Positions 24,298 through 54,681 of a DNA stretch of 64,000 nt are shown here, piece by piece. This DNA is from Galbibacter kalidii (lineage in GTDB: Bacteria; Bacteroidota; Bacteroidia; Flavobacteriales; Flavobacteriaceae). The stretch spans positions 64,369 to 128,368 of the forward strand of contig NZ_JAPFGA010000006.1 of the NCBI RefSeq assembly GCF_026241135.1, in the 5' to 3' direction. Numbering within the stretch: the stretch's first letter is position 1; each line of letters starts with the position of its first letter. Under the pieces are notes generated by a model. The model made no database searches. It saw only the letters and a list, made by a program, of their open reading frames with translations, and was not told the DNA's origin. The translations under genes were made by a program, and so were the position numbers.

Positions 24298-24417
24298 AAA
24301 TCAACTGCCTCGGGAAATCCATGAGGTATTAAAAGGGGCAAACCTTAATTCATTTCGATGCAGACCATCGGGGAAACTTGCCTAACGGCAGTCAGGTAAA
24401 ACCCACTTAGTGGGATT
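24298..24417 (+). ncRNA. Three-hairpin repeated 5' leader element, copy 1
   Basis: CCTCG-GG-aaat-CC-A-TGAGG; CGATGcagacCATCG; CCCACTTAGTGGG; ends 13 nt before ATG 24431; second copy at 54243-54343. Confidence 0.6.
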
Positions 24418-30003: not shown

Positions 30004-30069
30004 AAGAGAGGCTGTCTAAAAAAAAGATACTGAAACAATCCCGATAATTATCGGAACAAAATAAAAAAA

Positions 30070-31950
30070 ATGAAAAAATTACTCATACTTACATTATTTA
30101 TCACGTTTCAACTTTCAGCGCAAGTTGAAAAAATAGAACCGCCTTTTTGGTGGAGTGGAATGAACAACACCGAACTGCAATTGTTGGTGTATGGAGAAAA
30201 CATTTCAGAACTTCAACCCGAATTTTCGGATGGTATTGCCATTGAGAAAATCAAAAAAGTGGAAAATCCGAATTACCTTTTTGTAACGATTGATACTGAA
30301 AATGTGAGTCCGAAGACGGTACAACTTCAGTTTAAAAAAGGGAAGAAAATTGTTCAGGAATTCGATTATGAATTTAAAGAGCGAGCTGAAAATTCCGCAG
30401 GAAGAAAAGGTTTTGACAGCTCGGATGTTATCTACCTCTTGATGCCCGATCGTTTTGCCAATGGCAATCCGAAAAACGACAGTACAAAAAACACCGCTGA
30501 AAAAGCTGACAGGGAAAACAATGGTGGTCGCCACGGGGGCGATATCGAAGGCATCATTCAGCATCTGGATTATATTGAAGAACTCGGCGCTACTGCTATT
30601 TGGAGTACACCGCTTTTGGAAGACAACGAGCCACGGTATTCCTATCACGGTTATGCGCAGAGCGATTATTACAAAATCGATCCGCGTTTTGGCAGCAACG
30701 ACGATTACAAGCGTTTGGCCGATGAGCTTCATAAACGTGAAATGAAATTGTTGATGGATTATGTGACCAATCACTGGGGAAGCAAACATTGGCTGATTCA
30801 AGATCTGCCTTCCAAAGATTGGATTCATATTTGGGAAAACAGCAACCTTGATGCCAATGGTCGCGATGGCTTTCAGCGAAGTAATTATAGAATGACGACA
30901 CAGTTTGATCCCAATGCATCACAAGCTGATGCCGAAGGTTGTATGAACGGTTGGTTCGACACCACTATGCCTGATATGAACCAAAGCAATCCGTTGGTGT
31001 TGAATTATATGGTACAAAATGCCATTTGGTGGATAGAATTTGCCGGATTAGATGGTTTTCGCGTGGATACCTATTCCTATAATGACAAACACGGTATAGC
31101 CGAATGGACCAAACGTATCATGGATGAATACTCGAACTTCAACATTGTAGGTGAAGTGTGGATGCACGATCAGGCGCAAATGGCCTATTGGCAAAAAGAC
31201 AGTAAAATAGGTGCAATAGACGGTTACAACTCACATTTACCTTCGGTAATGGATTTTACGCTTCACGATGCCATCATGCAGGCCTTTGACGAGAACGAGC
31301 AAGGTTGGGATACTGGAGCCATGCGGTTTTATGATAATTTTGCCAACGATTTCTTGTATCCAAATATCAACAATTTATTGGTTTTTGCCGGAAATCACGA
31401 TACGCAACGTATCCAGACTGTTTTTGGTGGCGATGTAAATAAATACAAATTGGCCATGACCTTGATTGCTACTGTTCGCGGGATTCCGCAGTTGTATTAT
31501 GGCGACGAAATCGGAATGGAAGGTGATAAAGGCAAAGGCGATGGTGATATCCGTAGGGATTTTCCCGGAGGTTGGAAAGGTGATACAGATCCCGATAACT
31601 ATCGGGACGCTTTTACTGCTGAAGGAAGAACTGAGACACAAAAGGAATATTTCAACTTCACCAAAAAACTGTTGAACTGGCGTAAAAACAAGGTGGTAAT
31701 TCATTCAGGAAAAACCACGCATTATATTCCGCAGGACAATGTGTATGTGTATTTCAGATATAATGATGAGGAAACCGTTATGGTGGTACTGAACAATTCC
31801 GATAAAGAACAAAGTGTAGGTTTGAAGCGTTTTTCAAAGCATATTCAGGATAAAAAATTAGGAAAAGAAGTGATATCCGGACAAGAATTTACGCTGAATG
31901 AACCCTTGAAAGTGGAAGCCAAATCGGCACTAATATTTGAGCTAAAATAA
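30070..31950 (+). CDS. GH13 neopullulanase/cyclomaltodextrinase (SusA-like)
   Basis: Signal peptide, N-terminal beta domain, MDYVTNHWG, GFRVDTYSYND, FAGNHDTQR. Confidence 0.94.
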   Translation: MKKLLILTLFITFQLSAQVEKIEPPFWWSGMNNTELQLLVYGENISELQPEFSDGIAIEKIKKVENPNYLFVTIDTENVSPKTVQLQFKKGKKIVQEFDYEFKERAENSAGRKGFDSSDVIYLLMPDRFANGNPKNDSTKNTAEKADRENNGGRHGGDIEGIIQHLDYIEELGATAIWSTPLLEDNEPRYSYHGYAQSDYYKIDPRFGSNDDYKRLADELHKREMKLLMDYVTNHWGSKHWLIQDLPSKDWIHIWENSNLDANGRDGFQRSNYRMTTQFDPNASQADAEGCMNGWFDTTMPDMNQSNPLVLNYMVQNAIWWIEFAGLDGFRVDTYSYNDKHGIAEWTKRIMDEYSNFNIVGEVWMHDQAQMAYWQKDSKIGAIDGYNSHLPSVMDFTLHDAIMQAFDENEQGWDTGAMRFYDNFANDFLYPNINNLLVFAGNHDTQRIQTVFGGDVNKYKLAMTLIATVRGIPQLYYGDEIGMEGDKGKGDGDIRRDFPGGWKGDTDPDNYRDAFTAEGRTETQKEYFNFTKKLLNWRKNKVVIHSGKTTHYIPQDNVYVYFRYNDEETVMVVLNNSDKEQSVGLKRFSKHIQDKKLGKEVISGQEFTLNEPLKVEAKSALIFELK

Positions 31951-50767: not shown

Positions 50768-51736
50768 TTAACAACATCCTCCACCGTCATAATGCCAGGT
50801 GGACTTTGATATAAAAATATCATTTCTGCCGAGATTTTCAAGTACGGCAGCGGTTTTATCACAGATCGCCAAAGGTTGATTTTGAGGCAGTACATGTCCT
50901 TTTTGATCATCAAAAAAATCATCTTCCCCATAATACAGGGCTGTTTTTCCGGTAAACACACATGGACCATCCTCGGGTATGGGGTCTTTTATCGCCGCTA
51001 CTTCTATCGATTCAATAAAAATCAACTCTTCAGTATCATAATGATTCGGATCCAGAATACGGTATGGTTTTCTCGCTCGGATTTCAATAGTACCAAAGCC
51101 TGCACCAGTAAGCATTTTTACATATTCAGTAATGGGCAAACTTCCGCTAAGGCATAAAGCGCGTAATTTTTCGTCGTTTCTTAAGGCTTCATTCATGGGC
51201 TGCTCACAAGTGGGATCACTCATAATCAGTCGTCCATGGGGTTTAAGCACCCGATACATTTCTGCAATGGCTTTTTTTAGCTCTTCTTTTTTGAAAATAT
51301 TGAACAAGCAATTTTGAGCAGCGACATCTATACTGTTATCAGTTACGGGAAGGTGTAAAGCATCACCTTTTTTTAGATCGACAAATTCGCTTTTAAACCA
51401 ATCGTTTTGTGCTTCAGCCTCTTTAAAGTTTTTTCGGGAAGCTTCCAGCATTTCATCGACCACATCGATGCCAATCACTCCGTTTTTTTGGCGGGAGAAA
51501 TAAGCAAATTGCAACAATTCCATTCCGCCGCCAACACCTACATAAAGGATATTGGGGTTATTGACCAAATCCCTTGCGTGTACGGTGCTTCCACATCCGT
51601 AGTTCATTTCCTGCATGATCTTCGGGATCTTTAAGCCCGGTAATTCCCACACCGGATTGGTGGTACAGCACAAACCAACATTGGGAGTAAGTGCCGCTTC
51701 CTGATAAACATTTATTGTGGTATCTAGATAACTCAT
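50768..51736 (-). CDS. arsM: ArsM-like arsenite methyltransferase, arsenosugar type
   Basis: SAM-MTase motif VGVGGGMELLQFAYFSR, CCTTNPVW near N-term, C-terminal GGGCC tail. Confidence 0.85.
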   Translation of the reverse strand: MSYLDTTINVYQEAALTPNVGLCCTTNPVWELPGLKIPKIMQEMNYGCGSTVHARDLVNNPNILYVGVGGGMELLQFAYFSRQKNGVIGIDVVDEMLEASRKNFKEAEAQNDWFKSEFVDLKKGDALHLPVTDNSIDVAAQNCLFNIFKKEELKKAIAEMYRVLKPHGRLIMSDPTCEQPMNEALRNDEKLRALCLSGSLPITEYVKMLTGAGFGTIEIRARKPYRILDPNHYDTEELIFIESIEVAAIKDPIPEDGPCVFTGKTALYYGEDDFFDDQKGHVLPQNQPLAICDKTAAVLENLGRNDIFISKSTWHYDGGGCC

Positions 51737-52548
51737 AATTCTTTGATCAATTCTTTAAATAAAGCGATCATTTTAGGTTCTGTTTCGCCTGCTACACGGA
51801 TAATATCATCAAGATTCACAGGTTTTAGATTGTCCGGGTTGCCTTCATCAGTAATAACAGAAATAGCGACAATCGGTAGCCTGAGGTGGTTAGCGACAAT
51901 CACTTCAGGAACAGTGCTCATCCCTACGGCGTCGGCTCCGATAATCTTCAAATAGCGGTATTCGGCTTTGGTTTCCAATTGAGGTCCTACAACGGATACA
52001 TAAACTCCTTTTTTCAACGGAATCTGCTTTTTTTCGGCAATTTCTGTAAGCATACGGCGCATTTCCGGATTGTATGGTTCACTCATATCTACAAATCGGT
52101 CACCAAATTGTGCTACGTCTTTAAAAGCTAGGGGAGAACCGCCTTGCAGGTTGATATGGTCTTCGATAAGCATAAGATCCCCTTTTTTGAGGTCGAGATT
52201 GATAGACCCCGCCGCATTGGAAATCAATAGTTTTTTGATGCCCAATTCGTGCATAGCCCGTATCGGGTAGGTGATATCTATAAAATCATAACCTTCATAC
52301 AAGTGGAAACGTCCTTGCATCACCACTACTTTTTTTCCTTCAATCTCACCATAAATAAGTTTCCCGCTGTGGAATTCTACCGTGGCCATTGGAAAGAACG
52401 GAATATGGTTGTAGTGCGCTACAATAGGGTTTTCAATTTCTTCTACTAATTTTCCCAAACCTGTTCCTAAAACAATACCGATCTCGGGCTTGTCAAAACC
52501 TTTGCTTTTTAAATACTCGGTGGTTTCTTGCAGTTGTTTTTTGGTCAT
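51733..52548 (-). CDS. Purine nucleoside phosphorylase
   Basis: IGIVLGTGLGKLVEEI, MQGRFHLYEGY, ISNAAGSINLDLKKGDLMLIEDHINL. Confidence 0.94.
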   Translation of the reverse strand: MTKKQLQETTEYLKSKGFDKPEIGIVLGTGLGKLVEEIENPIVAHYNHIPFFPMATVEFHSGKLIYGEIEGKKVVVMQGRFHLYEGYDFIDITYPIRAMHELGIKKLLISNAAGSINLDLKKGDLMLIEDHINLQGGSPLAFKDVAQFGDRFVDMSEPYNPEMRRMLTEIAEKKQIPLKKGVYVSVVGPQLETKAEYRYLKIIGADAVGMSTVPEVIVANHLRLPIVAISVITDEGNPDNLKPVNLDDIIRVAGETEPKMIALFKELIKEL

Positions 52549-53159
52549 ATTTTTATGCTTTTTAAAAATTTTTGAAAAGCCGGGTGGGCTTTTATGTCGT
52601 TATAGTTATCAATATCGTTGCGTGTGTCTAACAAAGCTACATCAACTGTTTTTAAATCTTCTAAAGTATCTCTTAAAACCGTGTCTGTACTCCACTTTTT
52701 TTGCTGAAAGACCTTCGGGAACAACTGTTTTAAACCTAAGAGATAATAACCACCGTCTGCTGCAGGTCCTATTACGGCATCGTGGGCTTCCAGTTTTTTG
52801 AATGCGGTTTCGATATGCGACGGAGTAATATCATATAAATCACTACCAATAATGATTACTTTTTTATATCCTTCGGAAAAACATTCAAAAAAGGCATTTT
52901 CCATACGCTGCCCCAAATTATCACCTTTTTGGAGCTTTTTGCTGAATGTTTCTGGACTCCACAAGTCGTTTTCAATGATTTCTTCAGAATAATACACTGC
53001 TTTGTCACAAGGAAGATTACGGGTTACCTGTTTTGTTTTATTAAGAAGGAACTTATAAATTTCGAGTGCTTTTTCTTTTCCGACACTTTGGGCGAGACGG
53101 GTTTTTACCTTTCCCAATTCGGGATTTTTCGTAAATATGATGAGGATACTATTATTCAT
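52545..53159 (-). CDS. DUF2064/TIGR04282-type glycosyltransferase
   Basis: LIIFTKNPELGKVKTRLAQSVG, IIGSDLYDITPSHI, GPAADGGYYLLGL. Confidence 0.88.
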   Translation of the reverse strand: MNNSILIIFTKNPELGKVKTRLAQSVGKEKALEIYKFLLNKTKQVTRNLPCDKAVYYSEEIIENDLWSPETFSKKLQKGDNLGQRMENAFFECFSEGYKKVIIIGSDLYDITPSHIETAFKKLEAHDAVIGPAADGGYYLLGLKQLFPKVFQQKKWSTDTVLRDTLEDLKTVDVALLDTRNDIDNYNDIKAHPAFQKFLKSIKI

Positions 53160-53173
53160 CTGATGTTGTATGC

Positions 53174-54229
53174 TTATGTGACAGTCCCCTGACAACTGCT
53201 TCCTGATCCTGCAGTGCAGCCATAGCAGTGTTGGGAAATCAAAATATTCCGGTCGTTTAAAATGTCTTCGTTGTAGTCTTTGATGTGTTTTACCGGGCTA
53301 TTGACTTTCAAGCCCAACATCTGATTGAAATCACAGTCGTATAACCAACCGTCCCAACTCACCGAGATGGTGTTGGTACACATTACGTTTTGCACAGCTG
53401 CCGGATTGAAGGCTTCAACAAGCGAATACATATAATCTTCATAGTTTTCTGAGGCGATGAGGTAATCCAAAAACCTGGAGATAGGTAGGTTGGTAATTGC
53501 AAAAAGTTCGTGAAAATGAATCCCAAAATCTTCCAGCAATACCTTTTTAAAGTCTTTCTCCATAGAAGCCTGATCGGTGGGCAAAAAAGCCCCTGACGGA
53601 TTATAGATCAAATCCAGCTTCAAATCGCTATCCGGCATGCCATAACCCACAGCGTTTAGTTTTTTCAACGCACTGATCGATTTGTTAAAGACACCATCGC
53701 CACGCTGTCTGTCGGTTTTTCCCTTGGTCCAATGTGGCATGGAAGAAACAACATGGATCTTGTGTTTTTTGAAAAACCCGGGCAGGTCGTGATATTTTTT
53801 GTTCGCCATGATGATGGTCAGGTTGCTGCGCACGATAAAATCCTTTACCCCAAGCTTGGAAGCCTCTTCCACAAACCACCTGAAACTAGGGTTCATTTCC
53901 GGAGCACCTCCTGTGAGATCGAGCGTGTGGGCGCCGGTATATTTGATAACGTCGAGGCATTGTTGCATGGTTTCCCGGGTCATGATCTCTTTTCTGTCCG
54001 GACCGGCATCTACATGGCAGTGGGAACACACCTGATTGCACATATATCCCACATTGATCTGTAGGATCTCTGTTTTTCTCGGCCGTAAAGGAAATTGACC
54101 TGTTTCGGCAATTTTTTCCTTAAATGTGGGTAATTCCCCATTGACGAAAATTCCGTTGGACAAAATTTCCAGTTGTTTTTCGGTATTTGCGAGTTCGTTT
54201 TTTCGTTTATGTAACGATTGGGTCGGCAT
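53174..54229 (-). CDS. arsS: ArsS-like radical SAM protein (arsenosugar biosynthesis)
   Basis: CNQVCSHCHVDAGPDR radical SAM motif, C-term HCYGCTAGSGSSCQG. Confidence 0.88.
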   Translation of the reverse strand: MPTQSLHKRKNELANTEKQLEILSNGIFVNGELPTFKEKIAETGQFPLRPRKTEILQINVGYMCNQVCSHCHVDAGPDRKEIMTRETMQQCLDVIKYTGAHTLDLTGGAPEMNPSFRWFVEEASKLGVKDFIVRSNLTIIMANKKYHDLPGFFKKHKIHVVSSMPHWTKGKTDRQRGDGVFNKSISALKKLNAVGYGMPDSDLKLDLIYNPSGAFLPTDQASMEKDFKKVLLEDFGIHFHELFAITNLPISRFLDYLIASENYEDYMYSLVEAFNPAAVQNVMCTNTISVSWDGWLYDCDFNQMLGLKVNSPVKHIKDYNEDILNDRNILISQHCYGCTAGSGSSCQGTVT

Positions 54230-54242
54230 GTATTTGTTTTTT

Positions 54243-54343
54243 AATCCCACTAAGTGGGTTTAATTCCTCGATGCTCTTCATCGAAATGAGTTAAGGTTTT
54301 GTTCCTTTTAATACCTCGTGGGTTTACCCCGAGGTAGTTGATT
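54243..54343 (-). ncRNA. Three-hairpin repeated 5' leader element, copy 2
   Basis: Minus strand CCTCGGGGTAAACCCACGAGG; CGATGaagagCATCG; CCCACTTAGTGGG; ends 13 nt before ATG 54229. Confidence 0.6.
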
Positions 54344-54345
54344 CT

Positions 54346-54681
54346 TTACATCGAAAGCTTTTCATATTTATTCATCATTTGGACACCGTGAACCAAGGTC
54401 GCGCCACTTTCGATAGCAGCTCCTGCATGTACGGCTTCCATCATTTCCTCTTTGGTGATACCACGTTGCAGTCCGTCTTTTGTGTAGGCGTCGATACAAT
54501 ACGGGCATTTAACCACATGTGATACGGCCAAGGCAATCAATGATTTTTCCCTGGCGGAAAGTGCGCCTTCTTCAAAAACCTTTCCGTAGTATTCAAAAAA
54601 TTTATCACCAAGCTCTTTACTCCATTCAGTGATAGAGCTGAATTTTTTTAGATCGGCAGGATCATAATATGTCTTTTTCAT
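54346..54681 (-). CDS. AhpD/carboxymuconolactone-decarboxylase-like protein (arsenosugar-associated)
   Basis: ALAVSHVVKCPYCIDAYTKDGL CxxC motif. Confidence 0.9.
   Translation of the reverse strand: MKKTYYDPADLKKFSSITEWSKELGDKFFEYYGKVFEEGALSAREKSLIALAVSHVVKCPYCIDAYTKDGLQRGITKEEMMEAVHAGAAIESGATLVHGVQMMNKYEKLSM

Follow-up and report, generated by a model that had tools for sequence, protein, structure and literature searches.

In Galbibacter kalidii the spacer between the gene of an AhpD-like peroxidase and arsS is filled by three hairpins on the minus strand, and it has to be asked whether they form a leader that belongs to arsS or are one copy of something more widespread. The spacer lies in the window, i.e. 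the whole stretch of 64,000 nt that was analysed, and its features are collected in Table 1. A reading made from the letters of the window (hereafter the sequence-only reading) had placed three hairpins with a conserved bulged A before arsS, within the arsenosugar operon and downstream of the AhpD-like gene, and had let the element run from just after the AhpD-like stop codon to 13 nt before the arsS ATG. All of this stands: the hairpins are present on direct reading, they fold beyond chance, and the coordinates agree.

Table 1. Positions in the window of the two element copies, their parts and the neighbouring genes (hp, hairpin; RE, right end; LE, left end).
Feature	Position	Strand	Remarks
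Copy 1 of the element	24299..24417	+	13 nt before the ATG (24431) of an ORF reading like a LacI-type regulator
Nested palindrome ACTTGCCTAACGGCAGTCAGGT in copy 1	24376..24397	+	22 nt; second dispersed palindrome family
arsS, arsenosugar biosynthesis radical SAM protein	53174..54229	minus	TIGR04167, 437.7 bits
A-rich stretch AAAAAACAAATAC	54230..54242	minus	13 nt, from the element to the arsS ATG
Copy 2 of the element, AATC...GATT	54243..54343	minus	101 nt; covariance model 119.6 bits, E 8.9e-17
LE of copy 2	54243
hp3, CCCAC-TTA-GTGGG	54246..54258	minus	outermost LE hairpin
hp2, CGATG-AAGAG-CATCG	54269..54283	minus	LE palindrome region, ..AATTCC[CT]CGA..TCG.. on the + strand
hp1	54312..54336	minus	bulged A at 54319, read as a bulged T on the + strand; equivalent to the IS200-type RE palindrome
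RE of copy 2	54343
AhpD-like arsenosugar biosynthesis-associated peroxidase-like protein	54346..54681	minus	TIGR04169

The element in its operon

The cluster (50768-54681) has the order AhpD-like gene, arsS, TIGR04282 glycosyltransferase, purine nucleoside phosphorylase (PNP) and arsM, and the assignments TIGR04167, TIGR04169, TIGR04282, PNP and NF038099 identify it as a standard arsenosugar cluster. On the minus strand, the TAA of the AhpD-like ORF (54348-54346) is followed by AG and by AATCAACT-A-CCTCG-GGG-TAAA-CCC-A-CGAGG-TATT..., and the element closes with ...CCCACTTAGTGGGATT at 54243, 13 nt ahead of the arsS ATG (54229); on the plus strand it reads TTTTAATCCCACTAAGTGGGTTTAATTCCTCGATGCTCTTCATCG...AATACCTCGTGGGTTTACCCCGAGGTAGTTGATT. 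The intervening AAAAAACAAATAC holds both the NAA motif that flanks the element and, at -13 to -11, the A motif associated with translation initiation.

With hp1 about 7 nt from the RE and hp3 about 3 nt from the LE, the element has near-terminal palindromes. Long terminal inverted repeats are absent, the ends AATCAACT and GTGGGATT having only AATC/GATT in common, and a length of 101 nt here (73-161 nt for the model matches among the 30 best copies) makes it impossible for the element to encode a transposase. As RNA, copy 2 folds with z = -4.6 (1 of 200 dinucleotide shuffles equally stable), and as single-stranded DNA with z = -6.4 on the minus strand and -5.8 on the plus strand (0 of 200 shuffles). 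A search of the window against Rfam 15 yielded a tRNA as the sole match and none for the element at the gathering score.

Dispersed copies and covarying hairpins

The genome of 4.66 Mb contains at least 42 DNA matches to the element, the best other copy being 88% identical (E 1.6e-30), and a covariance model built on 11 copies finds 69 matches at E<=1 and 42 at E<=1e-3. Across the dispersed copies the element is about 105 nt long, and its orientation relative to genes is mixed. Galbibacter orientalis DSM 19592 has at least 65 copies, the other congeners 5, 1, 1, 0 and 0, so that the distribution in the genus is patchy. Three other genomes of the family contain one or two copies each, and with the covariance model none was detected in 23 genomes from other families of the order. 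Further copies occur in Sinomicrobium, Muricauda/Allomuricauda, Zunongwangia and Flavobacteriaceae MAGs, and a model of hp1 alone has matches in 39 of 299 Flavobacteriaceae genomes (34 genera), while the hp1 pattern has no match in viral contigs. The 3' half varies among genera; hp2 and a third hairpin are usually retained.

Several copies have peculiarities of their own. A 129-nt subfamily of G. orientalis (L107-L114), whose hp2 loop holds a sequence resembling CCCTTCGGTAAACTCAGGGCAGG, has multiplied as a unit and counts dozens of copies, and at one of these loci (L112, 549-798) two elements form a tandem, the junction lying in hairpin 3 of one of them. On a contig binned as Candidatus Omnitrophota (L157, 7713-7814), hp1 and its flanks lie near the duplicated end of a recJ-like ORF, an occurrence that reflects either horizontal transfer or misbinning.

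The sequence-only reading had also seen, between the two copies in the window, compensatory changes that preserve pairing, and this extends far beyond them. In an alignment of 83 copies from several genera, which are related by descent and were fitted to the covariance model in a manner that favours structure, 21 of the 23 base pairs are changed on both sides somewhere (e.g. hp3, CCCAC-TTA-GTGGG here and CCCTC-AAT-GAGGG in G. orientalis). Double-change cells number 137, against 51 +/- 11 in shuffles (0 of 500 as high), and 91.4% of the cells are paired, against at most 49% when the partners are slid. We regard the alignment bias as a secondary concern because of this slid control and of the size of the effect. 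Among 11 copies, the covariation did not clearly exceed that of shuffles. A strand test counted 110 G.T versus 77 A.C pairs, a small excess given shared ancestry and the model-fitted alignment.

Ends in common with IS200-type elements

Matches to hp1 abut the 3' end of an IS200-type tnpA, in antisense, in five genomes: G012 (five times), G079, G190, G196 and G280. The product of the last is a Y1 transposase (PF01797, E 3.3e-34; NF033573, IS200/IS605 transposase), with ISDra2 and ISHp608 as its relatives in the PDB. One IS (L197) was compared with the element at both ends: this IS has the LE GGGTTTAATTCCCCGCTGCT.. and the RE ATACCTCG-T-ATGCTTGCAT-CGAGGTAGTTCATT, the window element the LE GGGTTTAATTCCTCGATGCT.. 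and the RE ATACCTCG-T-GGGTTTACCC-CGAGGTAGTTGATT, and they align with z = 7.5 over shuffles at the LE and at the RE each. At the RE the inner-stem sequence differs, with pairing and the unpaired T kept. The multi-copy IS of G012 (L212, L219, L225) begins with TTTAATCTAAAGAATTCC... on the left and ends with ...GGTAGTTCATT on the right, and similar palindromes occur in IS200-type elements of two congeners (G006 and G003). For the IS at L198, L203 and L212 the LE similarity is weak (z ~1), and hp3 is strong in the element and weak in the autonomous IS. Two further loci, the Omnitrophota contig and L141, were considered as autonomous elements and discarded, there being no IS200-type gene beside the hairpin.

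Full IS of other Flavobacteriaceae thus carry hp1 as their RE and the hp2/hp3 region as their LE around a Y1 gene, and therefore the three hairpins correspond to one RE and two LE palindromes from between which the gene is gone. A second LE hairpin has been described in IS608, ISDra2 and IS605 (PMC5934647). The element is very probably a non-autonomous IS200-type derivative (IS200/IS605 family, Y1 HUH TnpA) whose RE and LE palindromes were joined by the loss of tnpA, i.e. a PATE. In copy 2 the plus strand of the window is the tnpA-sense strand of the parent IS. An IS200-type (class 1.1) tnpA was found neither in the genome itself nor in G. orientalis; for this reason the identity of the mobiliser is deduced from other genera, and the copies are probably inactive at present.

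By analogy with the biochemistry of IS608, a course of events can be proposed. The loss of tnpA would bring the RE palindrome (hp1) and the LE palindromes (hp2, hp3) together; a TnpA presumably supplied in trans would bind the hairpins on the single-stranded tnpA-sense strand and excise a single-stranded DNA circle, which would insert 3' of a short T-rich target, TTN, which the mRNA strand shows as NAA. Such a target may be offered by the A-rich motif in the translation initiation regions of Bacteroidota, so that sense copies of this genome would come to lie about 13 nt before an ATG. The arsS copy would be one insertion of this kind, with the A motif and the start codon intact and hp3 just outside the A motif. 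The cleavage positions and guide sequences that we assign to the element are inferred likewise.

The flanks agree with this picture in several respects. The two flanks of the 56 copies compared match no more often than expected at k = 2-5, i.e. there is no target duplication. GATT is followed by any base and then by A in 51 of 56 and A in 47 of 56 copies, which gives an NAA beside the LE (84-91%), and the flank opposite the LE is unbiased in base composition. This NAA represents the TTN target kept 5' of the LE on the tnpA-sense strand; IS608 keeps TTAC 5' of its left end (PMC5934647). The site between the AhpD-like gene and arsS is vacant in 29 relatives, and that of a second insertion, in the grpE-dnaJ spacer, in 6 of 6 congeners. 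These vacant sites belong to diverged congeners, and a recent, base-precise empty site was not found.

The element shares homologous ends with flavobacterial IS200-type elements. Like IS608 and ISDra2, it has subterminal hairpins at the LE and the RE, one base of the RE stem being unpaired, and next to the LE a short T-rich flank that is fixed, and it shows no target duplication; unlike them, it lacks tnpA and measures about 105 nt. With the MITEs of DDE transposons it has in common that it is small, non-autonomous and dispersed, and it differs from them in having neither long terminal inverted repeats nor a target duplication. The closest likeness is to the PATEs of Haloquadratum walsbyi, which have near-terminal palindromes related to IS200/IS605-type transposons (PMC3119063): such palindromes, no target duplication, a size that leaves no room for a transposase and dozens of copies are found here as well. 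This likeness is one of features, and in contrast to the Haloquadratum elements the present one is bacterial (Flavobacteriaceae), is akin to the IS200 type (tnpA only) and has two LE hairpins. To judge from its sequence features, which are those of PATEs, it is a new family of an already known kind. No earlier description of a flavobacterial IS200-derived repeat was found in the literature searched.

The resemblance includes small repeats nested in the palindromes, here of the CCTGCCTGCCGGCAGGCAGG type. Of the 30 best copies, 17 have additional palindromes, each about 20 nt long, in or beside hp1 and hp2. The family centred on CCTGCCTGCCGGCAGGCAGG matches the genome 68 times in forward and 70 times in reverse orientation, the reversed control pattern 0 times. 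Palindromes of the second family (CCTGCCTGCCGGCAGGCAGG-like and others) were observed in copy 1 of the window (24376-24397) and in L030, L034, L037, L038, L040-L042, L044-L047 and L049-L053. Perfect or near-perfect palindromes TCCCGATAGTTATCGGGA stand at 31590-31607 and 30039-30056 (4 strand matches versus 0.04 expected), and palindromes of this kind are likewise nested in element copies. In Haloquadratum, small mobile repeats prefer the near-terminal palindromes of PATEs for insertion (PMC3119063). By analogy, the nesting seen here appears to be a close parallel, with the difference that the nested palindromes measure about 20 nt whereas those of Haloquadratum are SMR-A elements of 110 bp.

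Start codons and competing explanations

In this genome many copies lie close to a start codon. Among the 30 best copies of the genome, 11 of the 16 with a same-sense downstream gene end at most 20 nt before its ATG, where 5.2 are expected from uniform placement in the spacer (P = 1.5e-4, in a test that was chosen after the data had been seen, with mechanically called ORFs). No comparable excess was found on the hp1 side. It is conceivable that the mobile element was co-opted in the lineage as a common 5'-UTR module, its hairpins abutting the A motif and determining translation or the stability of the mRNA in a group of genes, and these two observations speak for it. However, the effect weakens in the next 20 copies, where 4 of 11 lie this close to the ATG against an expectation of 2.3, and G. 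orientalis does not show it (3 of 22, with 4.5 expected), and a general leader function deduced from ATG proximity was rejected on the ground that significance is confined to the best copies of one genome. Moreover, the ATGs of 43 long ORFs of the window show an AA frequency of 0.33-0.35 at -13 to -10, versus about 0.1 at -30 to -21. Because this peak matches the A motif (functional at -14 to -11 in Flavobacterium johnsoniae; PMC6847099), the choice of target is a sufficient cause of the proximity, with no need of selection. We therefore consider co-option unlikely. A related idea fares marginally better and is still rather unlikely: the IS200-type target (TTN/NAA) would coincide with the A-rich motif at -14 to -11 that Bacteroidota use instead of a Shine-Dalgarno sequence, and elements would for this reason land just outside initiation sites, placing a hairpin module before many of them, and some copies, such as that before arsS, would have been kept as translation modulators.

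A second alternative concerns the enzyme. The element could be a REP/REPIN-type repeat, with a RAYT (TnpA_REP) as its mobiliser in place of an IS200-type TnpA, and it does share with such repeats the dispersed palindromes and the link to a Y1 transposase, together with a high copy number, a mostly intergenic position and a bulged hairpin. Both the genome (L057) and G. orientalis (L063) encode RAYT-like Y1 proteins, and a Bacteroidetes subclass of RAYT-like proteins accompanies atypical secondary structures (PMC6006769). Nevertheless, the element does not flank RAYT-like genes (none at L056, L057 or L063), L056 carries different repeats of its own, and the 5' GT[AG]G foot of REP sequences is missing, the 5' foot of hp1 being AACT on the minus strand and TTAA/TGAA on the other. 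The homology of LE and RE and the adjacency to tnpA favour IS200-type elements instead, whose ends the element matches, and a RAYT origin is decidedly unlikely. The RAYT-like genes of the genome were rejected as mobilisers; their flanks carry other repeats. At L056 a Y1 transposase gene (1856-2715, YIKNQEEHH motif) lies between inverted arrays of a different repeat, GCTCCGTAGGAGCGTAATATTAATAG, and the RAYT-like genes at L057 (1543-2142) and L063 (1429-1992) lie near similar small genes ending in ..GGHVPE[KR]RCRLIR[KR]EL.

The sequence-only reading had assigned the element to arsS, as a leader, perhaps arsenic-responsive, that could adjust arsS translation or contain an internal processing site, and had named beforehand two points that together would overturn this: absence of the element before the arsS orthologs of close relatives, and unchanged expression. 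The position inside the operon, the stable RNA fold and the end 13 nt before the ATG fit such a role, and in F. johnsoniae translation is tuned by mRNA structure near the start (PMC6847099). However, the first of these points, absence, was observed: inspection and the covariance model found the element in 0 of 29 related arsS loci. In all of them the AhpD-like gene stands ahead of arsS, the spacers ranging from a 3-nt overlap to 515 nt; the Rfam search had no match to offer, and the copies, at least 42 in the genome itself, stand beside unrelated genes in both orientations. Because it is the dispersed remnant of a mobile element and is missing from the 29 orthologs, the reading of the element as an arsS leader is not supported, and we hold an arsS-specific function to be highly improbable. 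The insertion may possibly affect arsS translation or processing, and unless expression shows otherwise its arsS context is incidental. The notion that the similarity among copies is due to chance or low complexity can draw on the AT-rich flanks and on nothing more, and is practically negligible against DNA matches down to E = 1e-30, model matches down to 1e-17 and a level of covariation that no shuffle attained.

The IS200-type derivation, which we prefer, ties conspicuous covarying leader hairpins in flavobacterial genomes, easily mistaken for riboswitch-like elements, to IS200-type transposons. The most interesting feature of the element is that so many of its copies lie just before start codons, and the overlap between the flank motif of a transposon and the A motif of the phylum provides a concrete and testable idea of how this placement may come about.
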